A DNA stretch of 64,000 bases, taken from positions 310,001 through 374,000 of the forward strand of contig NZ_FOOT01000004.1 of NCBI RefSeq assembly GCF_900113285.1, written 5' to 3'. This document shows positions 363 through 64,000 of this stretch, piece by piece; the first letter of the stretch is position 1, and the number at the start of each line of letters is the position of its first letter. The stretch is from Pontibacter chinhatensis (GTDB taxonomy: Bacteria > Bacteroidota > Bacteroidia > Cytophagales > Hymenobacteraceae). The notes under the pieces were generated by a model that did not search any database, was not told the origin of the DNA, and saw only the letters and a list, made by a program, of their open reading frames with translations. The translations under genes were made by a program, and so were the position numbers.

Positions 363-410
363 AAAAAGAAAGACTCCCGACAATTTATACTTGCCGGAAG
401 CCTTTCTTTA
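363..410. terminator. Bidirectional terminator hairpin between dapF and the acetyltransferase
   Basis: An A-rich arm (AAAGAAAGACTCCCGACA) pairs with TGCCGGAAGCCTTTCTTT, with some G-U wobbles, and leaves A and T runs on the two outsides. It can serve dapF on the minus strand. The loop holds TATACTT, one copy of the dispersed heptamer. Confidence 0.6.
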
Positions 411-444
411 TAGTTAGAACGACGGGTTAGTTCTTAATTATGAT

Positions 445-1221
445 TTATACATTAACTGAGCCGGTAAATACCTGCTTTGCCGGCCCGATCAGGTAAATAT
501 ACTTGAAGCTACCCTCACCGGTGCGCTCGAAGGCCACCTGCAGTTCGCCACCCAGCACTTTTACCTTTACCGGGCTCTGCATGCCCTCTAGGCCCGCCAC
601 CAGCGCAGCGGCTGTTACACCTGTTCCGCACGACAAGGTTTCGTCTTCCACGCCGCGCTCGTAGGTGCGCACAAATATCTCGTTCTCGCCAATCTTCTGC
701 ACAAAATTTACATTAGTGCCTACAGCTGCAAAACGGTCGTTGTAGCGAATGGCTCGGCCTTCTTCATACACATCCATCCCTTGCACGTCGTCTACAAAAC
801 GGATGTAGTGCGGAGAGCCGGTGTTGAGGTAGTAGTCGTTGCCAATTCGTTCCACTTGCTTCACGTCGTTCATCTTCAGTTGAATCAGGTCGCGCTCTAC
901 GCTGGCCTGGTGCTCGCCGTCGGCGGCCAGAAAGCAGGCCACGTCCTCAATCACGCCCAACTGGCGGGCAAAACGAACGGTGCAGCGCGCGCCGTTGCCG
1001 CACATGGAGCCCACACGACCGTCGGCGTTATAGTACACCATCTCGAAATCGTAGTCCGGATGGTCCTGCAAAAGTATAAGTCCGTCGGCACCCACGCCGG
1101 TGCGGCGGTCGCACAGGTGTTTTACCAACGCTTCGTTCTCGCCCGGGAAGGTCATTTTCCGGTTGTCGATCATCACGAAGTCATTACCAGTACCCTGGTA
1201 TTTATAAAAACTGATTGCCAT
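445..1221 (-). CDS. dapF: Diaminopimelate epimerase
   Basis: 258 residues, near the usual 260-280 of the family. DapF interconverts LL- and meso-diaminopimelate in the cytoplasm, the last step before peptidoglycan cross-link precursors and lysine. Visible signatures are the N-terminal YQGTGNDFVMIDNR, the first catalytic cysteine C74 in MCGNGARC, and the second, C198, in TLSCGTGVTAAA. The two cysteines form the acid/base thiol pair of this cofactor-independent racemase family. The start at MAISFYKYQ matches the family N-terminus. It is transcribed away from the methyltransferase gene that starts at 1329. No other lysine-pathway genes are adjacent. Confidence 0.97.
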   Translation of the reverse strand: MAISFYKYQGTGNDFVMIDNRKMTFPGENEALVKHLCDRRTGVGADGLILLQDHPDYDFEMVYYNADGRVGSMCGNGARCTVRFARQLGVIEDVACFLAADGEHQASVERDLIQLKMNDVKQVERIGNDYYLNTGSPHYIRFVDDVQGMDVYEEGRAIRYNDRFAAVGTNVNFVQKIGENEIFVRTYERGVEDETLSCGTGVTAAALVAGLEGMQSPVKVKVLGGELQVAFERTGEGSFKYIYLIGPAKQVFTGSVNV

Positions 1222-1328
1222 GTATCTGAAACAATAAAAACAGCAGGTTCGTGCACTTTTTATGGTGTGGCGGATAATGCGTAATTTTACCCCTTGCGGG
1301 CACCTCGCCTGAAATAAACGACAAAGAT

Positions 1329-2222
1329 ATGTATTCCTTTCTTACAACAGCAAACTGGCCTGATTATGAGCTGGTAGACAGCGGAAATTTCGAAAAACTG
1401 GAGCGGTTCGGCCAGTATTACGTGGCCAGGCCGGAGCCGCAGGCCATCTGGGACAAGCACCTGCCCGAGCAGGAATGGCAGCGCCTGGCGCAGGCCGTGT
1501 TTACCCGCGACAAAGGCAGCCAGGAAAAAGGCCAGTGGAAACTGAAAAAAGGAATGCCCGAGCAGTGGTTCATCAACTATACTTATAATGACCTAAAGCT
1601 GCGTTTCCGGCTGGGGCTGTCGTCGTTTAAGCACGTGGGTTTGTTTCCGGAGCAGGACGCGAACTGGAAGTTTATTTACGACACCACCCGCCAGTTAAAA
1701 ACGCCCCAGCCAAAGGTGCTGAACATGTTTGCCTACACCGGAGCTGCCACCCTGGCCGCCAAAGCCGCTGGCGCCGACGTGACGCACCTAGACTCGATAA
1801 AGCAGGTGAACTTCTGGGCCCGCGACAACATGGAAGCCAGCAACTTGGACAACGTGCGCTGGATTGTGGAAGACGCCATGAAGTATGCCCGTCGCGAAGT
1901 AAAGCGTGGCAATACCTACAACGGCATCATCCTGGACCCGCCCAGCTACGGCCGCGGCCCGAACGGCGAAAAATGGCAACTGGAAGACGAGCTGAACGAG
2001 ATGATAAAGCTTTGCCGCGAGATGCTGGACGGCACCGATTACTTCCTGCTAATAAACCTTTACTCGATGGGTTTCTCGGCCATGGTGCTCGACAACCTGA
2101 TGCGCGGCACGTTCGGCGATAGGGTACAGAACGAGGAACTCGGCGAATTATACTTGCTGGATGGCGGCAACAGGAAGCTGCCACTGGGGACGTTCTTCAG
2201 GTTTACTTCGGTGGGGAGGTAA
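1329..2222 (+). CDS. Class I SAM-dependent methyltransferase, RlmI/RlmK-like (COG1092)
   Basis: 297 residues. The protein has the Rossmann methyltransferase core of the 23S rRNA cytosine-5 methyltransferase group: motif I FAYTGAATLAA at 134-144, an acidic residue after strand 2 (THLDSIKQ), and motif IV DPPSYGRG at 203-210. The preceding KHVGLFPEQ stretch (101-109) is also typical. Compared with E. coli RlmI (about 396 residues) the N-terminal PUA RNA-binding domain is missing; short forms like this are common in Bacteroidota. It probably methylates rRNA, but the target base is not shown by the sequence. The gene stands alone, divergent from dapF across 107 bp. Confidence 0.85.
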   Translation: MYSFLTTANWPDYELVDSGNFEKLERFGQYYVARPEPQAIWDKHLPEQEWQRLAQAVFTRDKGSQEKGQWKLKKGMPEQWFINYTYNDLKLRFRLGLSSFKHVGLFPEQDANWKFIYDTTRQLKTPQPKVLNMFAYTGAATLAAKAAGADVTHLDSIKQVNFWARDNMEASNLDNVRWIVEDAMKYARREVKRGNTYNGIILDPPSYGRGPNGEKWQLEDELNEMIKLCREMLDGTDYFLLINLYSMGFSAMVLDNLMRGTFGDRVQNEELGELYLLDGGNRKLPLGTFFRFTSVGR

Positions 2223-2306
2223 ATAACTCAAAATTCAGCTAGAGCATGTATTCCTACCAGAAAGTCACTATATTCTGCAGCCATACTTTAACCTAACCTT
2301 CGTTCC

Positions 2307-4191: not shown

Positions 4192-4229
4192 AAAAAACAG
4201 CTCCGGAAGTATAACCTCCGGAGCTGTTT
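4192..4229. terminator. Terminator hairpin downstream of the TPR-like gene
   Basis: A perfect 13-bp inverted repeat, AAACAGCTCCGGA at 4195-4207 and TCCGGAGCTGTTT at 4217-4229, flanked by an A run that gives a U run on the minus strand after the stem. It lies 6 bp beyond the stop of the minus-strand gene that ends at 4236. An AAGTATA copy spans the last stem base and the loop (4207-4213). Confidence 0.85.
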
Positions 4230-8233: not shown

Positions 8234-8251
8234 TAGCAACTATAGAAGTAT

Positions 8252-8290
8252 AAAAAAGGCGCTGGCTAAAGTATAGCCAGCGCCTTTTTT
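8252..8290. terminator. Strong bidirectional terminator between convergent genes
   Basis: A perfect 17-bp inverted repeat (8252-8268 and 8274-8290) with core GGCGCTGGCTA/TAGCCAGCGCC, flanked by A6 and T6, ends the plus-strand dehydrogenase unit. It can also serve hscA, which ends at 8339 on the opposite strand. The five-base loop plus the next two bases reads AAGTATA (8269-8275), and another copy of the heptamer follows at 8290-8296. Confidence 0.92.
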
Positions 8291-8338
8291 ATACTTGCCT
8301 CAGCTGTAAGTTCATACTTGCCCAGGCAGATTATACTT

Positions 8339-14618: not shown

Positions 14619-15608
14619 TTATTCTTCCTCTAATTTATACTTAGAAAGATCCATACCGAAAGTCAGACCTTTCTCCTGAACCAGGTTCTCCAGCTCTGTC
14701 AGAGACTTCTTACCAAAGTTTCTGAACTTCATCATATCCGCAATATCAAGCTGTACCAAATCACCAAGCGTTTTGATGTCTGCAGCTTTCAGGCAGTTGT
14801 AAGCACGGACTGAAAGGTCCATGTCCTGAAGTGGTGTCTTGAGAACTTTGCGCATGTGCAGCAGTTCTTCGTCTACCGCCTCCTCTTCTTCCGGCTTAGC
14901 CGTCTCAAACGTCATTGTGTTGTCTGAGAACAACATAAAGTGCTGGATTAGGATATTGGCGGCTCCCTTCAGAGCGTCTTCTGGATGTATAGAACCGTCT
15001 GTCTGTATGTCAAGAACTAGTTTCTCGTAGTCGGTCTTTTGCTCAACACGGGTGTTTTCAACACTATACTTAACGTTCTTGATAGGGGTGAAAATGGCAT
15101 CGATGAAGATTTGTCCGAACACCTGATCAACTGGCTTATTCTCTTCAGCCGGTACGTAGCCACGTCCCTTCTGAATTGTCACTTCAAGCTCAAAGTTCAC
15201 GCTTGGGTCCAGGTGGCAAATTACCAGCTCTGGATTAAGCACTTCGAAGCTAGAAGTAAACCTGTTTATATCTCCAGCCTTGAAAGTATCCTGACCACTG
15301 AAATTAACAGTGATTTTCTCATCTACCACTTCGCTCACTTTCTTTAAGCGAACCATTTTCAGGTTAAGGATAATATCAGATACGTCCTCAACCACTCCTT
15401 CAACAGACGAGAACTCATGCAGTACACCACCTATGCGAACGCTGGTTATAGCATATCCTTCCAAAGAAGAAAGAAGGATTCTTCGCAGAGCATTACCGAT
15501 GGTTACCCCGTAACCTTTTTCAAGCGGCTTGAATTCAAATAAACCATGAAAGTCGTCGGCTTTTTCCATTACAACTTTCTCTGGCATTTGAAATGCTAAT
15601 ATTGACAT
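14619..15608 (-). CDS. rpoA: RNA polymerase alpha subunit
   Basis: 329 residues. The N-terminal domain that dimerises and holds beta and beta-prime shows [20 protein letters not shown], and the motif [14 protein letters not shown] flexible acidic linker ([11 protein letters not shown]) leads to the C-terminal domain with two helix-hairpin-helix stretches ([17 protein letters not shown] and [12 protein letters not shown]) that contacts DNA and activators. It lies between rpsD (37 bp away) and rplQ, the standard alpha-operon order. Confidence 0.99.
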
Positions 15609-15645
15609 ACTTGCAGTGTTAAAGGTTATTAATTGATTATGCTGC

Positions 15646-16251
15646 TTACTTAGAGTAAAGCTCGACGATCAGCTGCTCCTGAATTTTCTCAGGAATCTGA
15701 TCTCTTTGCGGAGTGGCAATGAATTTACCTGCCAATCCGTTAGCATCCCACTCTAACCAACCGAACTGACGTGCATTACGAACAGTCAGGCTTGAAGTAA
15801 TAGCCTCAAGAGACTTAGACTTCTCACGTACAGACACAACATCACCAACCTTCAGGGTGTAAGAAGGGATATTCACAATCTCACCATTAACAAGGATGTG
15901 CTTGTGCAGAACCAGCTGACGGGCAGCTCTTCTGGTTGGGGCGATACCTAAGCGGTAAATTGTATTGTCTAATCTAGATTCAAGCAGCGCCAGGAGGTTT
16001 TCACCCGCAACGCCACCTTTTCTTTGTGCTTTATCAAACAGATTAGCAAACTGCTTTTCTAAAACACCATAGATATATTTCGCTTTTTGCTTCTCAGCAA
16101 GCTGAATTGCGTATTCAGACTGCTTCTTGCGGCGACCACGGCCATGCTGCCCTGGAGGGTAGCTTTTTTTCTTAAGTGCTTTACTTGGACCGAAGATCTC
16201 CTCGTTGAAACGTCTTGAGATTTTACTTTTAGGACCTGTATATCTTGCCAT
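15646..16251 (-). CDS. rpsD: 30S ribosomal protein S4
   Basis: 201 residues. [15 protein letters not shown] is the usual start for S4. The S4 RNA-binding domain is visible at about 93-155 ([20 protein letters not shown], then [16 protein letters not shown]). The N-terminal zinc-binding cysteines of some S4 proteins are absent, so this is the C-minus form. S4 nucleates 30S assembly and in other bacteria represses the alpha operon by binding its mRNA; whether that holds here is not shown. It is 24 bp downstream of rpsK. Confidence 0.98.
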
Positions 16252-16275
16252 TACTTAATTATCTCTGTTAAGGAA

Positions 16276-16668
16276 TTAAACTCTTCTGCGTTTTGGAGGA
16301 CGGCATCCGTTATGAGGCAACGGCGTAACATCTTTGATGATGGTTACTTCGATACCCGTGTTTTGAACTGTACGGATGGCAGACTCTCTACCTGCACCTG
16401 GGCCTTTCACAAAAACTTCTGCTTTGCGCATACCAAGGTCATAAGCAACCTTTGCGCAGTCAGCAGCTGCCATTTGTGCAGCATAAGGAGTGTTCTTCTT
16501 GGACCCCTTAAAGCCCATCTTACCTGCAGAAGCCCAAGAGATAACTTGTCCTGCGTTATTGGTTACTGATATAATAATATTGTTGAAAGAAGCTTTGATG
16601 TGTACTTGGCCAGTAGCTTCAACAACTACAACACGCTTTTTAGCTTTATCTTTTCTTTTCTGAGCCAT
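16276..16668 (-). CDS. rpsK: 30S ribosomal protein S11
   Basis: 130 residues, normal length. Family features are [18 protein letters not shown], the [14 protein letters not shown] stretch, the [11 protein letters not shown] loop, and the basic end [19 protein letters not shown]11 forms part of the 30S platform near the E site. It starts 10 bp after the rpsM stop. Confidence 0.98.
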
Positions 16669-16678
16669 GATCTAGTGA

Positions 16679-17056
16679 TTATTTAGATGCCTTCTTCTTG
16701 CCAGCAACTGTCTTACGCTTACCTTTTCTTGTACGGGAGTTGTTTTTCGTTCTCTGTCCGCGTACTGGCAGACCTTTACGATGTCTCAATCCACGGTAGC
16801 AACCAATGTCAAGAAGACGCTTAATGTGCAGTTGAACTTCGGATCTTAATACACCCTCCGTTTTAACTTCTGCAGCAATAACATTTCTAATTTCACCGGC
16901 CTCGTCCTCAGTCCAGTCTTTTACTTTTTTGTCAAGATCCACCCCGGCCTTTGTTAAGATTTGTTTGGAAAGGCTGCGACCGATACCGAAAATATAGGTC
17001 AGCGCGATCTCTCCTCTCTTGTTATCCGGAATATCTACTCCTGCTAATCTAGCCAT
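16679..17056 (-). CDS. rpsM: 30S ribosomal protein S13
   Basis: 125 residues. It opens with [20 protein letters not shown], has the helix-turn motif [11 protein letters not shown], and ends in a lysine/arginine-rich tail ([18 protein letters not shown]), as usual for S13. It contacts P-site tRNA and bridges to the 50S head. It lies between rpmJ (9 bp upstream) and rpsK. Confidence 0.98.
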
Positions 17057-17065
17057 AAAAATTAA

Positions 17066-17182
17066 TTAACCTTGTCTTTGTTTATATCTTGGATTTTTCT
17101 TGTTGATCACATAAAGCTTCCCCTTGCGGCGGATAACTTTACATTCAGCACTTCTCTTTTTTACTGATGCTTTGACTTTCAT
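17066..17182 (-). CDS. rpmJ: 50S ribosomal protein L36, zinc-less form
   Basis: A 38-residue protein, [20 protein letters not shown] followed by [18 protein letters not shown]. The C-terminal N-P-R-Y-K-Q-R-Q-G and spacing identify L36. Zinc-binding L36 proteins have Cys at 11, 14 and 27 and His at 32. Here only the Cys at 14 remains, so zinc binding is lost (C-minus type), which is usual in Bacteroidota. It starts 5 bp after the infA stop and is followed by rpsM. Confidence 0.96.
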
Positions 17183-17187
17183 TGGAT

Positions 17188-17406
17188 TTATTTATATCGG
17201 TAAACAATTCTGCCTTTAGTAAGATCGTAAGGAGACATTTCGAGCTTTACTTTGTCACCAGGTAAAATCTTAATATAGTTCATGCGCATCTTACCTGAAA
17301 TATGTGCGATAACCTGGTGTCCGTTTTCAAGTTCAACTCTGAACATTGCATTAGACAAGGCCTCTACAATAGTACCGTCTTGCTCTATGGATGACTGTTT
17401 TGCCAT
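17188..17406 (-). CDS. infA: Translation initiation factor IF-1
   Basis: 72 residues, exactly the usual length. It is a single S1/OB fold: [20 protein letters not shown], then [19 protein letters not shown] and ending [14 protein letters not shown]-1 blocks the A site during initiation. It starts directly after the map stop codon (no gap), indicating tight co-transcription. Confidence 0.98.
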
Positions 17407-18183
17407 TTATGATCTTTTGATAGCCTCTTCTATATAATCAAATGTTGTTAATATCTCAGCTTTGTCCTTGCGCACCACAATAGTATGCTCGAAATGCGCT
17501 GAGGGTTTATTGTCTTTTGTGCGAATGGTCCATCCATCATCCTCCTGCACAATATGCCTGCTACCCAGATTTACCATAGGTTCAACGGCTATAACCAAAC
17601 CATTCTGAAGTTTTACTCCTTGCCCTCTTCTACCATAGTTTGGCACCTCAGGTGCTTCATGCAGGTTTCGGCCAATACCATGTCCAACCAATTCACGAAC
17701 TACAGTAAAACCGTTTTTTTCAGCATATTCCTGAACCGCAAAGCTTACATCACCAAGCCGGTTACCTGCTACAGCCTTTTCAAGAGCTAAATACAAAGAC
17801 TCCTTTGTAACAGCTAAAAGCTTGTGCACTTCAGGCGAAACTTCACCTACAGCATGTGTGTATGCACAATCACTATGGAAACCATTCTTGTAAACTCCAC
17901 AGTCAACAGAAATTATGTCTCCTTCGTTCAGAGTATAGTTACTAGGCATACCGTGCACAACCACAGAGTTGACAGAGATGCACAAGCTATAAGGGAAACC
18001 ATTGTAATTCTTGAAAGAAGGTTTCCCCCCATTATCGCGAATAAACTCTTCAGCAACTTTGTCCAGCTGAAGAGTTGTAATACCGGGTTTTATAAGACGA
18101 GCAATTTCGCCATGTGCTTTGCTAAGAATCAAAGCACTCTGGCGAATTAGCTCAATATCTTCTTCAGTTTTGTATAAAATCAT
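17407..18183 (-). CDS. map: Type I methionine aminopeptidase
   Basis: 258 residues, the short type Ia form without an N-terminal extension. It removes the initiator methionine from new proteins using two metal ions. The ligand regions are visible: ISVDCGVYKNGFHSDCAYTH (two aspartates), ELVGHGIGRNLHEAP (histidine), and AVEPMVNLG plus FEHTIVV (glutamate and histidine regions). It lies 3 bp downstream of secY and abuts infA. The adk gene often found between secY and map is absent here. Confidence 0.97.
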   Translation of the reverse strand: MILYKTEEDIELIRQSALILSKAHGEIARLIKPGITTLQLDKVAEEFIRDNGGKPSFKNYNGFPYSLCISVNSVVVHGMPSNYTLNEGDIISVDCGVYKNGFHSDCAYTHAVGEVSPEVHKLLAVTKESLYLALEKAVAGNRLGDVSFAVQEYAEKNGFTVVRELVGHGIGRNLHEAPEVPNYGRRGQGVKLQNGLVIAVEPMVNLGSRHIVQEDDGWTIRTKDNKPSAHFEHTIVVRKDKAEILTTFDYIEEAIKRS

Positions 18184-18186
18184 GGA

Positions 18187-19503
18187 TTAAGAAACCATGG
18201 CAATATTCTCTGTTCTGCCTCTTAACTTACCTGATTTCATCATGCCATCGTAATGGCGCATCAGTAAGTAGCTTTCAACTTGCTTAAGAGTATCTAGTAC
18301 TACACCAACCATGATTAGCAAAGAGGTTCCTCCAAAAAACTGAGAGAACTCCCTAGTTACACCAAATAGCATGGCGATAGCAGGGAATATAGCCACAAGT
18401 GCAAGGTAAATTGCCCCTGGTAAAGTTATCTTAGTTAAGATAGCATCAATATACTCAGAGGTAGCGCGTCCTGGTTTTACACCAGGGATAAAACCACCAC
18501 TGCGCTTCAAATCGTCTGCTATCTGATTTGGGTTAACACTGATTGCAGTATAAAAGTATGTAAAAACAAGTATCAACAGACCAAATACGAGGTTATACTG
18601 CCAGGAAGTAAAGTCAGAAAATGTTGCACCAATGTAGTTCGCTGTCTCGCTGGTATCTGCCCAAATAGAGGCAAGCATGGATGGCAGGAACATCAAGGAC
18701 TGTGCAAAGATAATTGGCATAACACCTGCCGCGTTTACCTTCAGAGGTATAAACTGTCGCTGACCACTATAAAGGGAACTAGCACCTACCTGCTTGGCAT
18801 ACTGTACAGGGATCCTTCTCACTGCTTGCGTCAGCATAACAACCGACATCACCACCAAGAACAATACAACAAGCTCAAAGATGAATAGAAGAGCTCCGTC
18901 TAGTTGCTTGGAAGTGGCTTCGAAGAGAATGGCACCTGGAAAACGGCTGATAATACCAATCATAATCAGCATTGAAATACCGTTTCCAATACCTTTGTCT
19001 GTAATCTTTTCACCAAGCCACATACAGAATACGGTTCCTGATGTAAGCACAATCATGGAGGTAATCGTGAACAAAGTTTGATTGATCACAATAGCCTCAG
19101 CATTGATCGTCGCTACAAACCCAACAGCCTGAGCAAGCGTAATCACAATAGTCAGAACGCGAGTGATCTGGTTGATTTTCTTTCTACCAGACTCACCCTC
19201 CTTCTGCATCTTTTGGAAATATGGAACGGCAATGGTTAAAAGTTGCAGTACGATAGAAGCCGATATGTAAGGCATGATACCCAGTGCAAAGATGGACGCA
19301 TTGCTAAACGCACCACCTAAGAACGTATCCAGCAAACCGAAAATACCCTCAGTATTTGACTGCAGCTGACTAGGTTCAACGCCTGGTAAAACAACAAAAG
19401 AACCAAGTCTGAAAATTGCTATAAAGAAAAGAGTGTTGAAGATTCTAACCCTCAAGTCCTCAATAGCGAAAATGTTCTTTAACGTTGTTATAAACTTCTT
19501 CAT
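18187..19503 (-). CDS. secY: Protein translocase channel subunit SecY
   Basis: 438 residues with ten hydrophobic segments, as expected for the central pore of the Sec translocon in the inner membrane. Visible family stretches include ALGIMPYISASIVLQLLTIA, VAVPYFQKMQKEGESGRKKI-like basic loop, the KVNAAGVMPIIFAQSLMFLP segment, and NPNQIADDLKRSGGFIPGVK in a cytoplasmic loop that contacts SecA and the ribosome. It is 12 bp downstream of rplO. Its partner SecE is encoded at 43435-43626. Confidence 0.98.
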   Translation of the reverse strand: MKKFITTLKNIFAIEDLRVRIFNTLFFIAIFRLGSFVVLPGVEPSQLQSNTEGIFGLLDTFLGGAFSNASIFALGIMPYISASIVLQLLTIAVPYFQKMQKEGESGRKKINQITRVLTIVITLAQAVGFVATINAEAIVINQTLFTITSMIVLTSGTVFCMWLGEKITDKGIGNGISMLIMIGIISRFPGAILFEATSKQLDGALLFIFELVVLFLVVMSVVMLTQAVRRIPVQYAKQVGASSLYSGQRQFIPLKVNAAGVMPIIFAQSLMFLPSMLASIWADTSETANYIGATFSDFTSWQYNLVFGLLILVFTYFYTAISVNPNQIADDLKRSGGFIPGVKPGRATSEYIDAILTKITLPGAIYLALVAIFPAIAMLFGVTREFSQFFGGTSLLIMVGVVLDTLKQVESYLLMRHYDGMMKSGKLRGRTENIAMVS

Positions 19504-19515
19504 ACTTTCTACTGA

Positions 19516-19962
19516 TTAAAGAGCAACTGTTTTACCGCCTGCGTTTTCTATTGATGATGTAGCAGTTACAGAGAAAGCATGAGCGTGTACTTCTACAGCC
19601 TTGTTCAACTCACCTCTGCCCAAAACCTTTACTTTATCATTCTTCTGAACCAAACCATGTGTTCTGAAGAAATCAAAATTAATTACTGTTTCGTTTGTAG
19701 ACTCTGCCAGAGCCTGAATAACATCAAGGTTGATAGCTTTATACTCAACACGGTTGATGTTCTTAAAGCCATACTTAGGAACTCGTCTCTGAAGGGGCAT
19801 CTGGCCACCTTCGAAACCAGCCTTCTGCGAATAGCCAGAGCGTGATTTTGCTCCTTTGTGTCCACGGGTAGAAGTACCACCTCTACCTGAACCAGGACCT
19901 CTACCTATTCTTTTTCTGGCTTTAACAGAACCTTCTGCAGGTTTTAAAGAATGTAAGTACAT
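19516..19962 (-). CDS. rplO: 50S ribosomal protein L15
   Basis: 148 residues. The glycine/arginine-rich N-terminal arm is plain (KRIGRGPGSGRGGTSTRGHK, GAKSRSGYSQKAGFEGGQMP), followed by the globular domain with PLQRRVPKYGF. L15 is an early-binding 23S rRNA protein. It lies between rpmD (2 bp gap) and secY, the standard spc order. Confidence 0.98.
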   Translation of the reverse strand: MYLHSLKPAEGSVKARKRIGRGPGSGRGGTSTRGHKGAKSRSGYSQKAGFEGGQMPLQRRVPKYGFKNINRVEYKAINLDVIQALAESTNETVINFDFFRTHGLVQKNDKVKVLGRGELNKAVEVHAHAFSVTATSSIENAGGKTVAL

Positions 19963-19964
19963 GA

Positions 19965-20144
19965 TTATTGTTCTTTAACTTCTACCAAATTGTGGACTTT
20001 TCTTACCATACCAGCAATCTGAGGAGTATACTCAACAGATACTGATTTATTTATCTTACCCAGACCCAAAGCCTTGATTGTCAGCTTCTGGTTATTCGGT
20101 CTGTCGATAATGCTTTTAACCTGAGTTATAGTTACTTTAGCCAT
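19965..20144 (-). CDS. rpmD: 50S ribosomal protein L30
   Basis: 59 residues, MAKVTITQVKSIIDRPNNQK then LTIKALGLGKINKSVSVEYT and a tail PQIAGMVRKVHNLVEVKEQ. The I-x-Q-x-K-S-I-I-x-R-P-x-x-Q/H-x-x-T-x-x-A-L-G-L pattern is that of L30. It fits exactly between rpsE (5 bp) and rplO (2 bp). Confidence 0.97.
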   Translation of the reverse strand: MAKVTITQVKSIIDRPNNQKLTIKALGLGKINKSVSVEYTPQIAGMVRKVHNLVEVKEQ

Positions 20145-20149
20145 CTCGT

Positions 20150-20668
20150 TTATCCGTTGAATACTTTCTGTAAGTTAACTCCCCTTTGCTGAGCTACCGC
20201 CAAAGGATCTCTCATCTTAGAAAGCGCGTCAAAAGTAGCCTTAACAACGTTGTGTGGGTTAGAAGACCCTTTAGACTTGCAAAGAACGTCTTTAATGCCA
20301 GCACTCTCCAAAACGGCACGCATTGCACCACCGGCAATTACACCTGTACCTGCAGCCGCTGGTTTAACTAGTACAAAACCGCCGGAGAATTTACCTTCTT
20401 GAGCATGTGGCACAGTATTGTGATACAAAGGAACCTTCATCAGGTTTTTCTTAGCATCATCAATACCTTTAGCAATCGCGTCAGTAACTTCGTTAGCTTT
20501 GCCCAGGCCATAGCCCACAACGCCGTTTCCGTCACCTACTACCACGATAGCGGCGAAGCTAAATCTTCTACCACCTTTTACAACCTTGGCTACACGATTA
20601 ATGGCAACTACTCTCTCTTTAAGCTCAATTTCGCTTGCCTTTACGCTACGTATATTATTCTTCAACAT
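20150..20668 (-). CDS. rpsE: 30S ribosomal protein S5
   Basis: 172 residues. The double-stranded-RNA-binding-like N-terminal half shows [20 protein letters not shown], then [20 protein letters not shown]; the C-terminal half shows [20 protein letters not shown] and [16 protein letters not shown]5 acts in decoding fidelity and mRNA unwinding at the 30S entry. It is 5 bp downstream of rplR. Confidence 0.98.
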
Positions 20669-20673
20669 AATTT

Positions 20674-21021
20674 TTAGAATTTAAGGCCAGCTTCACGAGC
20701 GCCTTCTGCCAATGATTTTACTTTACCGTGATAAAGGTAACCGTTACGGTCGAATACCACCTGAGAAATACCTTTAGCAAGTGCTTGCTCAGCGATAGTA
20801 GCTCCTACTTTTCCTGCGGCTTCAACATTAGCTTTTGCATCATCAAATTTAACTGAAGAGGCAGCTGCCAGTGTCACACCAGTAGTATCATCAACTAATT
20901 GTGCATAGATAGCTTTGTTGCTACGAAACACAGTCAGTCTTGGCCTTTCAGCGGTACCAGAAATTTTATTTCTGATACCTCTCTTAATTCTTAGTCTTCT
21001 GCTTATCTTATTAGTAGACAT
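20674..21021 (-). CDS. rplR: 50S ribosomal protein L18
   Basis: 115 residues. It has the basic start ([20 protein letters not shown]), then [20 protein letters not shown] and the typical end [21 protein letters not shown]18 binds 5S rRNA with L5 and L25. It lies between rplF and rpsE with gaps under 10 bp. Confidence 0.98.
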
Positions 21022-21029
21022 GATGATGA

Positions 21030-21584
21030 TTATTTAGATGCTGTCTTACCAGCTTTTCTTCTAACAACTTCTCCAACAAAGCGGATACCTTTACCTTTGT
21101 AAGGCTCAACTTTACGCAGAGACCTAATCTTAGCAGCAACCTGACCAAGAAGTTGCTTGTCGTTTGACTCCAGCGTTACAATCGGGTTTTTACCTTTCTC
21201 CGTAACAGCGGTAGCAGTTACTTCCTCTGGCAAACTCAAAAATATGTTGTGAGAGTAACCTAAAGAAAGCTCTAAAACTTTACCTTGAACAGTAGCTTTA
21301 AAACCCACACCAACAAGCTCTAGCTGCTCCTTATAACCTTGGCTAACACCAACAACCATATTGTTGATGAGCGATCTGTAAAGACCGTGCATTGCTTTAT
21401 GACGCTTCTGCTCGGTTGGACGCTCAATAACAATAGTATTGTCGTCTTGCTTTACAAGGATGTCTTTATCAACAGCTGTAGAAAGCTCACCTTTAGGGCC
21501 TTTTACAGTAACAACATTATTATCACCGATGGTAACTTGTGTGTTGTTAGGCAGGGTGATTGGCAATTTTCCTATACGTGACAT
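21030..21584 (-). CDS. rplF: 50S ribosomal protein L6
   Basis: 184 residues. It begins [19 protein letters not shown] and contains the duplicated L6 fold, with [35 protein letters not shown] and the C-terminal [15 protein letters not shown] followed by [12 protein letters not shown]6 sits at the base of the L7/L12 stalk. It is 14 bp downstream of rpsH. Confidence 0.98.
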
Positions 21585-21598
21585 TGTCTATCCTCCTA

Positions 21599-21997
21599 TT
21601 AATATACATAACATAACACCTCGCCACCTACGTTCAGTGACTTAGCCTCTTTATCTGTCATTACACCCTTAGATGTAGACAAAATGGCTACTCCAAGTCC
21701 GTTCAATACTCTTGGCATTGTTTCAGTGCCAGTGTATTTGCGCAGCCCTGGCTTACTTACCCTTTCCAGTTTCACAATAGCAGACTGCTTAGTGTTAGGG
21801 TTATATTTCAGAGCTATCTTAATCGTTCCTTGCACGCCAGAGTCATCAAATTTATAACTTTGGATATACCCTTTGTCGTACAATACTTTAGTGATCTCTT
21901 GTTTAATCTTGCTAGATGGTATCTCAACTATTCTGTGGTTAGCCTTGATGGCGTTACGCACCCTAGTTAAATAATCTGCTATTGGATCTGTGTTCAT
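21599..21997 (-). CDS. rpsH: 30S ribosomal protein S8
   Basis: 132 residues. Features include DPIADYLTRVRNAIKANHRI, IPSSKIKQEI, and the C-terminal TSKGVMTDKEAKSLNVGGEV. S8 binds helix 21 of 16S rRNA, and in E. coli represses the spc operon. An unusually long gap of 91 bp separates it from the upstream rpsN; this gap carries a promoter-like box and a small inverted repeat. Confidence 0.98.
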   Translation of the reverse strand: MNTDPIADYLTRVRNAIKANHRIVEIPSSKIKQEITKVLYDKGYIQSYKFDDSGVQGTIKIALKYNPNTKQSAIVKLERVSKPGLRKYTGTETMPRVLNGLGVAILSTSKGVMTDKEAKSLNVGGEVLCYVY

Positions 21998-22039
21998 TAT
22001 GAATGAATATAATAATGAATGCTTTATCTAAGCGAGGGG

Positions 22040-22058
22040 CAAAGATAATAATATCTTT
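22040..22058 (-). promoter_or_regulatory. Candidate internal promoter element and hairpin between rpsN and rpsH
   Basis: On the minus strand TATCTTTG (22040-22047) fits TAnnTTTG and lies 43 bp upstream of rpsH. It overlaps a 7-bp inverted repeat AAAGATA/TATCTTT at 22041-22058. No -33 TTTG is seen at the right distance, so a promoter is only possible; a regulatory hairpin is the alternative. Confidence 0.35.
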
Positions 22059-22088
22059 TGAAAGATTCTTGCAGGGAATCCTAAAAAA

Positions 22089-22358: not shown

Positions 22359-22360
22359 GG

Positions 22361-22915: not shown

Positions 22916-22916
22916 G

Positions 22917-41695: not shown

Positions 41696-41699
41696 TTTC

Positions 41700-42392: not shown

Positions 42393-42405
42393 TTTCCTTC
42401 AAATG

Positions 42406-42849
42406 TTATTCGCTCCACGGAGCTGTGCCAGAAACTGTAATACCCATGCTTCTTGCTGTACCTGCTACCATTTTCATGGCTGACTCCAGTTTGAAAGCAT
42501 TCAGGTCAGGCATCTTCGTCTCGGCGATCTCTCTTACCTGATCCCATGTTACCGAACCCACCTTGTTACGGTTAGGCTCTTTGGATCCGCCTTTAACTTT
42601 AGCAGCATCCATCAGCATCACTGGAGCAGGAGGAGTCTTAACAACGAAGTCAAAAGACTTGTCTGCATACATTGTAATCAAAACTGGTAACACTTGGCCA
42701 GCCTTATCCTGTGTTCTAGCATTAAACTGCTTACAGAACTCCATGATGTTAAGACCTTTTGAACCAAGTGCAGGTCCAACCGGTGGCGATGGATTCGCTG
42801 CACCTCCCTTTATCTGAAGTTTCAGATAACCTTTAATTTCCTTTGCCAT
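42406..42849 (-). CDS. rplK: 50S ribosomal protein L11
   Basis: 147 residues. [20 protein letters not shown], then [20 protein letters not shown], and the C-terminal rRNA-binding part ending [15 protein letters not shown] are diagnostic. L11 forms the GTPase-associated centre with 23S rRNA and is needed for RelA activation. It is 13 bp after nusG. Confidence 0.98.
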
Positions 42850-42862
42850 TAATATGTATTTA

Positions 42863-43423
42863 CTAGGATTCTTTTTCTACTTGCATGTAGTTCAGCTCAA
42901 CCGGTGTATTTCTTCCAAAGATTTTCACCATCACGTTGAGTTTCTTACGCTCTTCAAACACCTCTTCTACAGTGCCCGAGAAACCGCTGAACGGACCATC
43001 CATTACTTTCACAATCTCTCCTACCACAAATGGAGTATCCAGCACTTCCGCCTGCTCTTCTGCCTCATCCACAGTACCTAGTATTCTATTTACCTCGGAT
43101 TGGCGAAGTGGAACTGGCTTCTTGCTTGGAGAGCCTTTCTCATCTGTTCCCAGGAAACCGATTACACCAGGAGTGCTGATGATAATGTGCTCGGCCTCAC
43201 CATGGGAAAGATCCGCATGAACAAGAACATAACCTGGGAAAAAGCTACGCTCTCTGATTCTCTTCTTTCCGCCACGCATTTCGTACACTTTCTCTGCAGG
43301 GATTAGCACCTGAGGCACATAATCCTGAAGACCGTGGCGCATTATCTCGTTTTCAAGGTAAGACTTCGCTTTCTTCTCCTGCCCACTAACGGCGCGCACT
43401 ACATACCACTTTAAATCAGCCAT
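42863..43423 (-). CDS. nusG: Transcription termination/antitermination factor NusG
   Basis: 186 residues. The NGN domain ([40 protein letters not shown]) and the C-terminal KOW motif ([19 protein letters not shown]) are both present. NusG binds RNA polymerase and links it to Rho or to S10 of the leading ribosome. It lies 11 bp downstream of secE in the conserved secE-nusG-rplK order. Confidence 0.98.
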
Positions 43424-43434
43424 GCATCTCTAAT

Positions 43435-43626
43435 TTAAAACTGGTTGTAAAACCACGACAATACAGTGTCGAACCCAAAGTCCATAACACCTACTATCAA
43501 GGCAAAAATCAAAGAACCGATCAACACCAACACTGAGCTATTTTGCAACTCCGCGTATGAAGGCCAGGAGACCTTGTTCTTCATCTCTTCTACAGTGTCG
43601 TTGATATAGGTTCTTATATTGCTCAT
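43435..43626 (-). CDS. secE: Preprotein translocase subunit SecE
   Basis: 63 residues, the minimal form. A short amphipathic helix (YINDTVEEMKNKVSWPSYAE) precedes one transmembrane helix at about 32-52 (VLVLIGSLIFALIVGVMDFG). SecE clamps SecY in the membrane. It follows tRNA-Trp by 28 bp and precedes nusG. Confidence 0.96.
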   Translation of the reverse strand: MSNIRTYINDTVEEMKNKVSWPSYAELQNSSVLVLIGSLIFALIVGVMDFGFDTVLSWFYNQF

Positions 43627-43654
43627 GGCTTTGATTACCAGATAGTGAAAATTG

Positions 43655-43727
43655 CACGGGTGGAGAGACTCGAACTCCCAGCCAACGGTTTTGGAGACCG
43701 CTACTCTACCAATTGAGCTACACCCGT
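43655..43727 (-). tRNA. tRNA-Trp (anticodon CCA)
   Basis: 73 nt. The acceptor arms ACGGGTG and CACCCGT pair fully. The D arm contains TAGCTCAATTGGTAGAG, the anticodon loop CTCCAAA gives CCA, and the T arm is GGGAGTTCGAGTCTCTC with the TTCGAGT loop. Discriminator is G. CCA is not encoded. It lies between tuf and secE and is probably the first gene of the secE-nusG unit. Confidence 0.97.
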
Positions 43728-43760
43728 AAAAAAATGCACGCCAATTTTTTTATTGGAGTG

Positions 43761-43791
43761 CAAATTTATTCATAAGTTTTATGAAAACAAA
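43761..43791 (-). promoter_or_regulatory. Promoter for tRNA-Trp-secE-nusG unit
   Basis: Minus-strand TTTG (43788-43791), a 19-nt spacer and TAAATTTG (43761-43768) match the Bacteroidota consensus, 34 bp upstream of tRNA-Trp. The -33 element overlaps the tuf terminator stem. Confidence 0.8.
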
Positions 43792-43824
43792 CCCGATCCT
43801 AAAAAAACTTTTAAGACCGGGTTT
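43789..43824 (-). terminator. Terminator after tuf
   Basis: AAACCCG (43789-43795) and CGGGTTT (43818-43824) pair, with further partial pairing inside and an A/T-rich loop, 12 bp beyond the tuf stop. Confidence 0.7.
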
Positions 43825-43835
43825 GCAACATAATA

Positions 43836-45023
43836 TTAGTCAAGGATTTCAGTTACCTGACCGGCACCTACTGTTCTACCACCCTCACGGATAGCGAAAC
43901 GAAGGCCTTTCTCCATTGCAACAGCGTTGATAAGGTTAACCTCGATAGTGATGTTATCACCTGGCATAACCATTTCTACACCTTCTGGCAGCATAATCTC
44001 GCCAGTTACGTCTGTGGTTCTGAAGTAGAACTGTGGACGGTATTTGTTGAAGAATGGAGTATGACGGCCACCTTCTTCTTTAGAAAGTACGTAAACCTCA
44101 GCTTTGAATTTAGTGTGAGGCTTAACTGAACCTGGCTTACAGATAACCATACCACGACGGATATCAGTTTTCTCGATACCACGCAGCAGCAGACCTACGT
44201 TGTCACCAGCTTCACCTCTGTCAAGGATTTTGCGGAACATCTCCACACCAGTAACTGTAGACTTCAGGTTCTCAGCACCCATACCCAGGATCTCAACTGG
44301 ATCACCAGAGTTGATTACGCCACGCTCGATACGGCCAGTAGCAACAGTACCACGACCTGTGATAGAGAACACGTCCTCAACCGGCATCAGGAATGGAAGG
44401 TCTACCAGACGCTCTGGAAGTGGAATCCAGTTGTCAACAGCGTCCATCAGTTTCTCGATAGTAGCAACCCACTTCGGATCACCGTTCAGGCCACCAAGAG
44501 CTGAACCTTGGATAACTGGAATATTGTCACCGTCGAAGTCGTAGAAAGAAAGCAGCTCGCGGATTTCCATTTCAACCAGCTCAAGAAGCTCTGGATCATC
44601 CACCATGTCTACTTTGTTCATGAACACTACCAGCTGAGGTACACCTACCTGACGAGCAAGAAGGATGTGCTCACGAGTTTGTGGCATAGGACCATCTGTA
44701 GCAGCCACCACAAGGATAGCACCGTCCATCTGAGCAGCACCAGTAACCATGTTCTTCACATAGTCAGCGTGACCAGGGCAGTCAACGTGCGCGTAGTGAC
44801 GATTCTCAGTAGCATACTCTACGTGAGATGTATTGATAGTAATACCTCTTTCTTTTTCTTCAGGAGCGTTGTCAATTGAAGAGAAGTCACGCATCTGAGC
44901 AAGACCTTTGTTTGCCAGCACTGTAGAAATAGCTGCCGTCAAAGTAGTTTTGCCGTGGTCAACGTGACCGATAGTACCGATATTTACGTGCGGTTTGGAA
45001 CGGTCAAATGTTTCTTTAGCCAT
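43836..45023 (-). CDS. tuf: Elongation factor Tu
   Basis: 395 residues. All five G motifs are visible: GHVDHGKT at 19-26, T in GITIN (switch I), [20 protein letters not shown], and the GSAL region. EF-Tu brings aminoacyl-tRNA to the ribosome. The gene follows three tRNA genes in the same direction (Tyr, Gly, Thr) and is followed by a terminator, so it is probably read from the tRNA promoter at 45602-45632. This is the only tuf copy in the window. Confidence 0.99.
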
Positions 45024-45096
45024 TGTATGATATTAAATTAAGGTTAAAACGTTTAAGTATCTGTCGCGCTTTTAATATTACACGTAACGGACTCTG

Positions 45097-45168
45097 AGCC
45101 AACGATGGGAATTGAACCCACGACCCCTTCCTTACCAAGGAAGTACTCTACCCCTGAGCTACGTCGGC
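45097..45168 (-). tRNA. tRNA-Thr (anticodon GGT)
   Basis: 72 nt. Acceptor arms GCCGACG/CGTTGGC pair, with a G-U. The D arm is TAGCTCAGGGGTAGAG; anticodon stem CTTCC/GGAAG with loop TTGGTAA gives GGT; the T arm is CGTGGGTTCAATTCCCATCG. Discriminator is U. It is 73 bp upstream of tuf. Confidence 0.97.
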
Positions 45169-45279
45169 TTATACTAGAGCTCATCAGAAAACAACATCCC
45201 TATTTACACTAAAAAGGAAGCTCATCTGCATGAATTTCCTCCTCCAGTCCTTGGTAATAAATATTTCCTGACAATAAAG

Positions 45280-45352
45280 AGCGGGAGACGAGGTTCGAAC
45301 TCGCGGCCTATAGCTTGGAAGGCTATCGCTCTACCAACTGAGCTACTCCCGC
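45280..45352 (-). tRNA. tRNA-Gly (anticodon TCC)
   Basis: 73 nt. Acceptor GCGGGAG/CTCCCGC pairs perfectly; D arm TAGCTCAGTTGGTAGAG; anticodon stem ATAGC/GCTAT with loop CTTCCAA gives TCC; T arm GCGAGTTCGAACCTCGT. Discriminator is U. Confidence 0.97.
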
Positions 45353-45436
45353 TTTTTTGATTTAGAATGACAAACAACCGAACGACTGAATACATATTCA
45401 CTTATCCAAACCTTCAGCTATTTACTCATTATCTTG

Positions 45437-45520
45437 TGGGGAGAGCAGGATTCGAACCTGCGAAGTCATTACAACAACGGAGTTACAGTCCGTCCCATTT
45501 GGCCGCTCTGGAATCTCCCC
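45437..45520 (-). tRNA. tRNA-Tyr (anticodon GTA)
   Basis: 84 nt, a class II tRNA with a long variable arm (TTGTTGTAATGACTTC region). Acceptor GGGGAGA/TCTCCCC; anticodon stem ACGGA/TCCGT with loop CTGTAAC gives GTA; T loop TTCGAATC. Discriminator is A. It is the first gene of the tRNA-tuf unit. Confidence 0.96.
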
Positions 45521-45601
45521 GAAACTAATTTCTACATTAAATCAGCAGAACTACCCTTAGATTTTCGCCGCTTTCGCCGCGCTGCTTGTTCTAAGGAGAT
45601 G

Positions 45602-52771: not shown

Positions 52772-53866
52772 ATGCGCGTACTACACCTTGTATCAGAGAA
52801 AACATGGAGAGGCGGCGAGCAGCAGGTGGCCTACCTGATAGCGGAACTGCAGCAACTGGGGGTAAGCAATTATGTGGCCTGCCGCAAAGGTTCTGCCTTC
52901 CATGAATATTGCCTGCGGCAACGCATCCCGCACGCGGCCCTGCCCTTTGCCAACGAGTTCGATGTGGTGACCGCGCTTCGTGTAAAAGCTTACTCCCGAC
53001 AGCACAAACTGGAGCTGATGCATGTGCACAGCGGCCACGCCCACGCCATCAGCGTGCTGTCGCATGCGCTGGGCAATACCCTGCCCATTATACTTAGCAG
53101 GCGCGTTGATTTTCCGGTTAAGAACAACCTGCTCTCCCGCCTGAAGTACAATTACAAGGGTATCCAGCGCGTGGTGTGCGTGTCTGACAAGATCAAGGAG
53201 GTGGTGTCGCAGAGCCTGGATCGGCCGGAGCTTTGCATCACCGTGTACAGCGGCATAGACCTGAGCCGCTTTGCCGGTAGCGCCAAAACAGGCAAGCTGC
53301 ACCGCGAGTTTAACCTACCGCCGGAAGCTCCGCTCATTGGCAACATATCGGCCATTGCCCCGCACAAGGACTATTATACTTTCATCGACACGGCCGAACT
53401 AGTGCTGCTGCAGCACCCTGAGGCCCGGTTCTTTATCATCGGCGATGGCCCGCTGCGCCAGGACATCGAATCCTACGCCCGCCACAAAAACCTGCAGGAC
53501 CGGGTTATCTTCACCGGTTTCCGGAAAGACATACCTGAGAGTATGCCTGAACTGGATGTGATGCTGGTTACTTCTGAAACCGAAGGGCTGGGCACTACCA
53601 TTCTGGACGCCTTTGCCTGCCGGGTGCCGGTAGTGGCCACTAGGGCCGGCGGCATTCCGGAAATTGTGCGGGATGGGGTTACAGGCCTGCTGGCGCCGGT
53701 AAAGGCCCCTGCCGAGCTGGCCCAAAAAGTACACGAGGTCCTCACCAACGAGCAGAAGCGGCAGCAGCTCATCGAAGGCGCCTCTAGGCTGCTGCAGGAG
53801 TTCTCCAAGCAAAACACGGCACGGCGCACGCTGGCCATTTACCAGGAAGTGCTCGGCAAAGTATAA
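52772..53866 (+). CDS. Family 4 glycosyltransferase
   Basis: 364 residues, GT-B fold. The N-terminal half shows the glycine loop TWRGGEQQVAYLI and the C-terminal half IGNISAIAPHKDYYTFID, IIGDGPLRQDIESYA, and the GT4 signature ETEGLGTTILDAFACRVPVV with AGGIPEIV. These enzymes transfer sugars from nucleotide donors, retaining the anomeric configuration, for surface polysaccharide or lipid. Sugar and acceptor are unknown. It converges with a family 2 glycosyltransferase; together they may act in the same envelope glycan, which is an inference. Confidence 0.9.
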   Translation: MRVLHLVSEKTWRGGEQQVAYLIAELQQLGVSNYVACRKGSAFHEYCLRQRIPHAALPFANEFDVVTALRVKAYSRQHKLELMHVHSGHAHAISVLSHALGNTLPIILSRRVDFPVKNNLLSRLKYNYKGIQRVVCVSDKIKEVVSQSLDRPELCITVYSGIDLSRFAGSAKTGKLHREFNLPPEAPLIGNISAIAPHKDYYTFIDTAELVLLQHPEARFFIIGDGPLRQDIESYARHKNLQDRVIFTGFRKDIPESMPELDVMLVTSETEGLGTTILDAFACRVPVVATRAGGIPEIVRDGVTGLLAPVKAPAELAQKVHEVLTNEQKRQQLIEGASRLLQEFSKQNTARRTLAIYQEVLGKV

Positions 53867-53888
53867 AGTATAAAACCGGGTTATACTT
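53866..53888. terminator. Hairpin between convergent glycosyltransferases, made of two heptamer copies
   Basis: AAGTATAA (53866-53873) pairs with TTATACTT (53881-53888) around AACCGGG. A third copy ends the upstream coding region (53859-53865). No U run after the stem, so strength as terminator is doubtful. Confidence 0.5.
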
Positions 53889-62293: not shown

Positions 62294-62603
62294 CCCACGC
62301 AGCAAGCCAACACAAAGTATAAAAGTATAGCTGCGCTGCTTCAGCCCGTGCTTTTATACTTTGTCCCGTTTCCCGCACGCACCGCATGACCGGAAACTCT
62401 CATAGCAGACGGTGCCCTGGCGCCCACCAGAATTAACTCTCATAACGCCAGCGACATCCCCAACAGCCGCCCTTAAACTGACTCCAATAACAAAAGACGC
62501 ACTCAGGAGTTGTAACATAACATACACAGCAAACTGCCGTACACCTCTAGAACGGCTATGGCTGTAAGGTTTTTATGTTTCACCAATAATCTTCTGAAAA
62601 CGA
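62294..62603. other. 310-bp intergenic region with a heptamer-built inverted repeat
   Basis: No credible gene. CAAAGTATAAAAG (62313-62325) and CTTTTATACTTTG (62351-62363) form a perfect 13-bp inverted repeat around a 25-nt loop; together with the copies at 62286 and 62323 it holds four heptamers in 80 bp. It may act as a terminator for the methyltransferase gene despite lacking a GC-rich core. The rest (62364-62603) shows nothing recognised. Confidence 0.6.
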
Positions 62604-62873: not shown

Positions 62874-62890
62874 CCCGAATCACTTAACCT

Positions 62891-63070
62891 ATGAAAACCA
62901 TGAAGAATCAGGATAAAAACAAGCAGAGTGATCTAACTGACAAAAACAAAAGCGGCAAGAAAGACATCGGCAACAGCCTGGAACGCGATGTAACCAATAG
63001 CAAGCAAACCGGCAGAACGCCCCAAGCCCGCACTGACAACGAACAGGATAGCGAAAGCAACAAGCGCTAA
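62891..63070 (+). CDS. Tiny hydrophilic protein, second of a pair
   Basis: 59 residues: MKTMKNQDKNKQSDLTDKNK then SGKKDIGNSLERDVTNSKQT and a tail GRTPQARTDNEQDSESNKR. It is even more charged and polar than its neighbour and without hydrophobic core, so probably disordered. It shares the K/N/Q/S/D composition with the upstream gene but no long identity. Either the first ATG or the one at codon 4 may be used. It ends 20 bp before a perfect terminator. Confidence 0.55.
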   Translation: MKTMKNQDKNKQSDLTDKNKSGKKDIGNSLERDVTNSKQTGRTPQARTDNEQDSESNKR

Positions 63071-63090
63071 CTGCGTAGTTTGATATTTAG

Positions 63091-63129
63091 GCAAAACAGC
63101 CACAGCACTTTATGCTGTGGCTGTTTTGC
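63091..63129. terminator. Strong terminator after the small hydrophilic pair
   Basis: A perfect 17-bp inverted repeat, left arm 63091-63107 (GCAAAACAGCCACAGCA) and right arm 63113-63129, with loop CTTTA. The T run inside the right arm fits an intrinsic terminator. Confidence 0.9.
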
Positions 63130-63179
63130 GTTACGCTTCTCTGTAAATCTTCGTACTTTACCCGTATACTTCTGTAACT

Positions 63180-64000
63180 ATGAAAAAGACGTTCCCGACG
63201 CTCCTGCTCCTGTGGCTGTGCTCGCTTTCGGCCCTTGCCCAGGCACCCTCCGAGAAGGTGGTGGGCTTTCTGCTGCACGCCCCCGGCCTGCCCGACACAG
63301 CGCAGGTATACATTACCGGCAATGCCCCTGAGCTGGGCAACTGGAGCCCTGGCAAAATACAGATGGAGCGTACGGGCCCCGATACCTGGCAGAAAGAGAT
63401 AGTGCTGCTGGAGCCGATGCTGTTGGAGTATAAGTATACCTTGGGAAGCTGGGAACAGGAAGCCGCCGACAGTACCGGAAACCCGCTCCGCAATTTCACT
63501 GTGAAGGTGGAAAGCAGCCTGCAGGTAAAAAACAAGGTAACCAACTGGCGCAGCGGCGACAGCAAGGAGCTGGTGAAAGGCGGTGTTACCGGCGAACTGG
63601 TGTACCACGAAAAGGTGGGCAAGAGCACCCTCATCCCGCCACGCGACCTGGTGGTGTGGCTCCCTCCCAATTATGAAAAGGACAAGAAAAAGCATTACCC
63701 GGTACTTTACCTGCACGACGGCCAGAACCTCTTCGACCCCAATACCAGCTCCTTCGGTGTGGATTGGCGCGTGGATGAAACTGCCGACAGCCTCATCCGC
63801 CAGAAGGCCATAGAGCCGATTATTATTGTGGGAATCAACAACACTCCAGACCGTATGCAGGAATACACCCCCGGTGAGAAAGGATCCGCTTACGTGGATT
63901 ATGTGGTAAACACGGTAAAGCCTTTTATCGACAGCACTTACCGTACCAGGCCGGGCGCAAAGTATACGGCCACCGGCGGCTCCTCGGCAGGCGGCACCAT
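63180..64000 (+). CDS. Secreted esterase, alpha/beta hydrolase with N-terminal starch-binding-like domain (3' part cut by window edge)
   Basis: 273 codons run to the right edge. A signal peptide (MKKTFPTLLLLWLCSLSALA, cut before QAPSEK) exports it. Residues about 25-120 look like a CBM20-type beta-sandwich: VYITGNAPELGNWSPGK and YKYTLGSWEQE. Then the esterase D-like hydrolase starts: RDLVVWLPPNYEK, HYPVLYLHDGQNLFDP (oxyanion region), and the nucleophile elbow GGSSAGG with Ser269. Such enzymes (COG2382/COG2819 type) split acyl or feruloyl esters or siderophore esters; the substrate here is not known. The catalytic Asp and His lie beyond the edge. Confidence 0.85.
   Translation, partial: MKKTFPTLLLLWLCSLSALAQAPSEKVVGFLLHAPGLPDTAQVYITGNAPELGNWSPGKIQMERTGPDTWQKEIVLLEPMLLEYKYTLGSWEQEAADSTGNPLRNFTVKVESSLQVKNKVTNWRSGDSKELVKGGVTGELVYHEKVGKSTLIPPRDLVVWLPPNYEKDKKKHYPVLYLHDGQNLFDPNTSSFGVDWRVDETADSLIRQKAIEPIIIVGINNTPDRMQEYTPGEKGSAYVDYVVNTVKPFIDSTYRTRPGAKYTATGGSSAGGT

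Follow-up and report, generated by a model that had tools for sequence, protein, structure and literature searches.

AAGTATA, a densely iterated heptamer with three dialects in the genus Pontibacter, as a candidate self tag resembling DNA uptake sequences

The window analysed here is a stretch of 64,000 nucleotides of the Pontibacter chinhatensis genome (contig NZ_FOOT01000004.1, positions 310,001 to 374,000). It holds a block of ribosomal-protein genes and, throughout its length, copies of one short word, the heptamer AAGTATA with its complement TATACTT, which is the subject of this study. We counted 92 copies against ~8 expected for a random 7-mer. They are unevenly distributed, with 41 between 1 and 15.6 kb (2.63 per kb), 9 within the ribosomal-protein block from 15.6 to 45.6 kb (0.30 per kb) and 42 between 45.6 and 64 kb (2.28 per kb). 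A preliminary description of this DNA had put the number at about 91 and had noted a nearly balanced orientation (about 40 to 51). Both statements agree with our count of 41 AAGTATA and 51 TATACTT, and the orientation is locally mixed elsewhere in the genome as well. The excess is real and larger than first noted, since the whole genome (5.07 Mb, hereafter G000) contains 5623 + 6004 = 11,627 copies, or 1 per 436 bp, which is 32 times the reversed-word control (169 + 191 = 360).

The word is sharply defined. Markov models trained on the window predict 6.6, 11.1, 18.1 and 38.6 copies for the 92 seen at orders 1, 2, 3 and 4. Across 464 kb of the genome, 1057 copies stand against 38, 68, 178 and 494 expected at the same orders, and AAGTATAAA was seen 404 times in this sequence against 5.7 expected at order 2. 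With a maximal-order model of the window alone AAGTATA lies outside the top eight 7-mers and its 5- and 6-mer parts top their own lists, because these parts mostly consist of the motif. Shorter words of the GTATA or TATAC type, considered beforehand as a possible source of the excess, were ruled out by a masking test. When AAGTATR was masked, the remaining sub-words dropped to nearly the frequencies found in five congeners without the motif (AAGTA 1.86 vs 1.82, AGTAT 1.53 vs 1.24, GTATA 1.61 vs 1.44 and AGTATA 0.46 vs 0.40 per kb). Relative to an order-3 model derived from five motif-free congeners, AAGTATA is 21-fold enriched, and among its 21 one-mismatch words only AAGTATG stands out (8.4-fold). 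Changes of the first base reach 1.7 to 3.1-fold, and every other one-mismatch word lies between 0.7 and 1.9.

The excess is bound to the genus, and within the genus the word occurs in dialects. Among named sequences, the S-adenosylhomocysteine hydrolase encoded in the window is most similar (93%) to that of Pontibacter sp. FD36. We searched 204 genomes of the family, 50 of them from Pontibacter (G000 included) and 154 from five other genera. In none of the 154 did AAGTATA exceed ~2.5 times the reversed word, and in 22 genomes of the order it came to ~0.4 to 1.8 times. The words AGGTATA and AACTATA were counted within the genus only; a first look at dialects covered 33 relatives, and the final counts cover all 50 genomes. 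With the boundary between rich and poor set by us at 0.7 copies per kb, 39 of the 50 genomes count as rich, with one of the three words at 0.82-3.06 per kb, and the other 11 as poor, at 0.14-0.59 per kb. AAGTATA is the leading word in 20 rich genomes and AGGTATA in 12, AACTATA stands alone in 4, and three genomes (G027, G033 and G210) carry both AAGTATA and AACTATA in thousands. One genome of the AAGTATA group, G217, has 3531 AACTATA besides 10,614 AAGTATA. The core common to the three dialects is the first A plus TATA. A T directly after the core is avoided: in each of the three dialects no more than 3-5% of sites have it. At the copies of the window there is in addition a weak flank extension, A-AAGTATA-A(A). 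A G at positions -10/-9, seen in the sequence logo of the window, was gone in a larger set of sites.

The dialects follow phylogeny. A tree was built from PhoH, ComEC, HscB and a SAM-adenosyltransferase-like protein, which represent one locus, without an outgroup. The 12 AGG genomes form a single clade (support 100/100), as do the seven AAC or mixed genomes (support 100/100), and the AAGTATA dialect is scattered over the remaining tree. Repeating the tree and the codon alignment without a spurious antisense open reading frame (ORF), o17, opposite phoH left the dialect clades the same and changed the deep order. On this unrooted evidence the AAGTATA dialect is probably ancestral, and the mixed genomes G027, G033 and G210 look like dialect transitions.

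A fourth strong dialect was not found in the motif-poor genomes in 40-93 kb per lineage. Weak AAGTATA remains in one of them, G007 (50 seen vs 12.9 expected). G215 (L147, L194) has a mild excess of GGGTATG (25 vs 6.0 expected) and GGTATGG (28 vs 8.0), perhaps the remnant of a further dialect. In motif-poor G028 (L035, L193) the unrelated TTCAGACA occurs 19 times in 40 kb against 1.1 expected, possibly as an interspersed or tandem repeat. A scan of the phylum covered 73 of 80 named loci (at least 8 kb). Among the strongest 30 of these 73, Pontibacter sp. FD36, of the AGG dialect, is the clear leader, and weaker words appear in a few others. Two Hymenobacter loci (L076, L079) carry the palindrome-like words AGGGCCCC (19 vs 1.8) and ACCTAGG (20 vs 2.6) in 21 kb. 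Motif-poor genomes are on average larger than rich ones (mean 5.71 Mb, range 4.9-6.5, for the 11 poor vs 4.59 Mb for the 39 rich; Spearman -0.74 on rounded sizes); this comparison comprises 2 well-supported independent contrasts (4 on all branches), too few for a sign test to decide.

Between the AAG and AAC dialects, words have been replaced at the same sites. We aligned ~68 kb of the mixed genome G033 with the AAC genome G031, skipping sites close to the ends of aligned blocks. The 149 AAGTATA sites of G033 read AAGTATA in G031 at 33 positions, AACTATA at 18 and one of the 20 other one-mismatch words at 33 (by subtraction); the remainder are more changed or gapped. Conversely, the 189 AACTATA sites of G031 are the same in G033 at 63 positions, AAGTATA at 18 and one of the other 20 words at 31. 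In the same-dialect pair G031/G211, AAGTATA was found at 3 of 268 sites vs 48 for the other 20 one-mismatch words. Therefore, a single transversion (G/C) is favoured, about tenfold, only where dialects differ, and sites are rewritten in place between AAG and AAC. Coding alignments around comEC agree with this: of 877 cells that set AAC sites against AAG genomes, 66 show AAGTATA, above any other word, the cells not being independent of each other.

Existing copies are also conserved. Between G000 and G013, motif copies in coding DNA are identical at 54 of 59 sites, compared with 79/119 for one-mismatch words and 25,491/37,487 for non-motif 7-mers. The corresponding intergenic numbers are 42/52, 27/42 and 3277/6058. 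In the pair G031/G211, AACTATA was kept at 109/145 coding sites vs 139/293, and at 74/131 intergenic sites vs 51/125.

A drive by DNA modification and repair could account for several of these observations. In such a system a methyltransferase would mark the word, mismatch repair guided by the mark would create or keep copies, and dialects would follow the enzyme. The known precedent is HIP1 of cyanobacteria, which occurs inside genes and is replaced in some species by alternates that come with matching methyltransferases (PMC4390886). The Pontibacter word is as dense as HIP1 or denser, its recognition is sharp and its sites are strongly maintained. However, HIP1 and its alternates are described as GC-rich palindromes with cognate methyltransferases (PMC4390886), whereas AAGTATR is AT-rich and asymmetric. 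Nor does any of the three methyltransferase families that our search covered track the division into rich and poor genomes. N6_N4_Mtase is present in 31 of 50 genomes; 13 of the 39 rich genomes lack it, among them G000. N6_Mtase exceeds the cut-off in 50/50 and Eco57I in 46/50, with patchy strong matches beside widespread weak ones, and only weak ones in the rich genome G207. We regard this explanation, the main rival, as rather unlikely.

The position of the copies relative to genes bears on further alternatives. Based on our own crude ORF calls (73-80% coding), the density in G000 is 1.4 copies per kb in coding and 5.7 in intergenic DNA, with 10.7 in convergent and 4.2 in divergent intergenic regions. 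Convergent regions are denser than divergent ones in the AAG, AGG and AAC pools, and motif-poor pools lack that difference. Of 1205 copies, 587 lie in coding DNA and use all six frames, which rules out codon bias or a protein motif, as the preliminary description had argued from coding and non-coding copies in different frames. The antisense frame in which AACTATA would hold a TAG stop is almost empty in the AAC dialect (9/416). Within 60 bp of each other, head-to-head pairs (82) outnumber tail-to-tail pairs (41) among 1105 sites examined; overlapping copies that form the palindrome AAGTATACTT make up 20 of the head-to-head pairs. Three of four window clusters that were folded form strong hairpins and one does not (Table 1). 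A terminator motif could produce such hairpins, but neither such a motif by itself nor chance or codon bias is a credible source of the word, given the six coding frames, the masking test and the lack of an excess in motif-poor congeners and other genera.

Intergenic crowding, clustering and conservation above background could also reflect selection that preserves binding sites of a nucleoid or architectural protein. This seems very unlikely to us, as about half of the copies fall within coding sequence, in each of the six frames, thousands of sites have been rewritten between species without evident function, and motif-poor species exist. A Chi-type recombination or repair signal, or another chromosome-maintenance site, would likewise be spread over the genome as the copies are, and non-palindromic 7-mers act as Chi in some bacteria. 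Consistent strand polarity, as of Chi or KOPS, was absent from two 200-kb stretches, in a genome whose origin and terminus were not mapped. On contig C3, 278 forward and 240 reverse copies flip in orientation between 20-kb blocks (chi2 51.7, 9 df), and on contig C15 the orientations number 194 and 253. This extends the earlier argument from near-balanced orientation against a strand-biased site. In addition, it would be unusual for a housekeeping signal to change its dialect throughout a genome and to disappear from some species, so that a Chi-type role appears to us very unlikely. In the sampled part of contig C15 the largest motif-free stretches comprise a transposase and a cluster of metal-efflux genes of the RND and P-type-ATPase types; such a lack of the motif would be expected of newly acquired DNA.

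Table 1. Location of motif copies, motif-poor stretches and decayed competence genes; positions refer to the window unless a genome or contig is named.
Feature	Location	Strand	Remarks
AAGTATA copies, n=92	386..63966	both (41 +, 51 -)	first copy starts at 386, final copy 63,960-63,966
Single copy, placed in the loop region of a terminator-like hairpin	4207..4213	+	fold z -7.7
Three copies in one strong terminator-like hairpin	8246..8296	8246 +, 8269 +, 8290 -	fold z -9.4
Motif-sparse ribosomal-protein block (secY, EF-G, rpoC, rpoB, four tRNA genes)	15600..45600		9 copies in 30 kb; secY, EF-G, rpoC and rpoB by Pfam
Tandem pair and inverted copy	53859..53888	53859 +, 53866 +, 53882 -	fold z 0.02, no better than shuffles
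Three copies, inverted pair and hairpin	62315..62361	62315 +, 62323 +, 62355 -	fold z -6.4
Motif-poor metal-efflux/transposase stretch	G000 contig C15, ~135-157 kb (L052, L053)		
Decay of comEC and dprA	G022 (L192, L254, L255); G009 (L187, L256)		comEA-like gene decayed too in G022

Genes of natural transformation are present throughout the genus. comEC was matched in 50/50 genomes, as one clean piece in 47, and is damaged in three: the reading frame is broken and interrupted by stops in G022 and G009, and broken once in G018. dprA, likewise matched in 50/50, is decayed in exactly two of these three genomes, G022 and G009. A comEA-like gene encodes a protein of 304-346 amino acids (310 in G000) with helix-hairpin-helix repeats and a hydrophobic N-terminal stretch; it was matched in all 50 genomes and is open in 49, the exception being G022. 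In the same genome, the genes for PhoH, HscB and the SAM-adenosyltransferase-like protein near comEC are clean. The joint decay of comEC and dprA in two lineages fits what would be a single pathway, natural transformation, kept by the others.

Taken together, we consider it somewhat probable that AAGTATR serves natural transformation as a self tag specific to this genus, in the manner of a DNA uptake sequence (DUS). In this model, DNA bearing AAGTATR would be preferred in natural transformation. Imported fragments would replace the resident allele, mutations that create the word would spread, and the word would build up wherever the encoded protein or RNA tolerates copies. The specificity of the reader protein would have shifted at least twice in the genus, from G to C at the third base and from A to G at the second. 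We infer that DNA uptake would be the selecting step, recombination of imported DNA the drive, and a receptor other than a pilus the reader of the word. The resemblance to uptake sequences raised in the preliminary description is borne out in several respects: a strong and sharp genome-wide excess that shorter words do not explain, dialects that share a core and follow the tree (one locus, no outgroup), in-place replacement between AAG and AAC, crowding at gene 3' ends with inverted pairs near them, scarcity in conserved genes and in the likely acquired stretch, and the genes of the comEC/dprA pathway. On the other side, no full-length pilus-type ATPase was found in the 50 genomes, and the motif-poor genomes keep their competence genes. 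Because this pilus ATPase was looked for and not found in full length and a role in uptake is a prediction from sequence, we liken the motif to a DUS and do not classify it as one.

Several observations weigh against a role as a self tag. A full-length match to PF00437, the ATPase of pili and type II secretion systems (T2SS), was found in 0/50 genomes, a search that did not extend to pilins and secretin. Short matches occur in all 50, the best covering 60 of 370 positions with 25.9 bits, and 3/50 lie just above the cut-off. All 11 motif-poor genomes retain comEC, dprA and the comEA-like gene; what such lineages lost, or never acquired, would therefore be specificity and not competence. G009, with decayed comEC and dprA, tops its clade in AGGTATA (9303 copies), and G022 (5476 copies) is not the poorest of its own, as G020 has 4114. 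Thus, either the loss of the pathway is recent or the link to competence is wrong. In-place conversion between AGG and AAG is not clear, since AGGTACA, AGGTATA and CGGTATA are commoner than AAGTATA at those sites. In the AAC pair G031/G211, AAGTATA, which is not the word of that dialect, is likewise fairly well preserved (21/36 coding and 9/13 intergenic sites, 30/49 in all); therefore, part of the conservation in this pair may be inherited or reflect secondary recognition. Finally, the copies are clustered, with 330 of 1101 gaps at or below 60 bp vs 141 expected. After clusters were collapsed, gaps of 60-120 bp were still in excess (169 vs 85), and the gap analysis revealed no even spacing.

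Uptake tags have been described in two proteobacterial families. The DUS of Neisseriaceae are 10-12 bases long and are read by the pilin ComP together with type IV pili. Pontibacter shares with the DUS described in PMC3630211 dialects congruent with phylogeny, the use of sites that tolerate the word both within and between genes, inverted pairs at terminators and a short core across dialects, which is CTG in Neisseriaceae and the first A plus TATA here. Unlike these DUS, the Pontibacter word has a 7-base core, is denser and clustered, and occurs in genomes in which no full-length pilus ATPase was found. The uptake signal sequence (USS) of Pasteurellaceae, which is linked to the uptake of self DNA, resembles it as an iterated short word and differs in the word itself, the phylum and the machinery. 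USS copies are reported to be evenly spaced, whereas those of Pontibacter are not. Within the same phylum, Riemerella columbina prefers its own DNA, which outcompetes foreign DNA in transformation (PMC7965970). The available part of that report identifies no tag, and the frequent words listed there are A/T-rich. We found no report of the Pontibacter motif, or of uptake sequences in Bacteroidota, in the open-licence literature of PubMed Central (PMC).

If the word should instead be a signal of modification or repair, it would represent an asymmetric counterpart of HIP1, and to our knowledge none is known from elsewhere. As a self tag, it would belong to a phylum in which self-preferring uptake has been measured and no tag has been found so far. 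The word also testifies to a drive behind thousands of placed and rewritten copies, roughly half of which lie within genes. Tentatively, Pontibacter might then have evolved the self-tagging of exchanged DNA independently, in three dialects and with a receptor other than a type IV pilin; genetic isolation between species driven by a tag might be possible without type IV pili, and lineages that lose the tag might tend towards larger genomes. With a tag this dense, and with the two-dialect genomes G027, G033 and G210, the origin, shift and loss of uptake tags would become testable in this genus.

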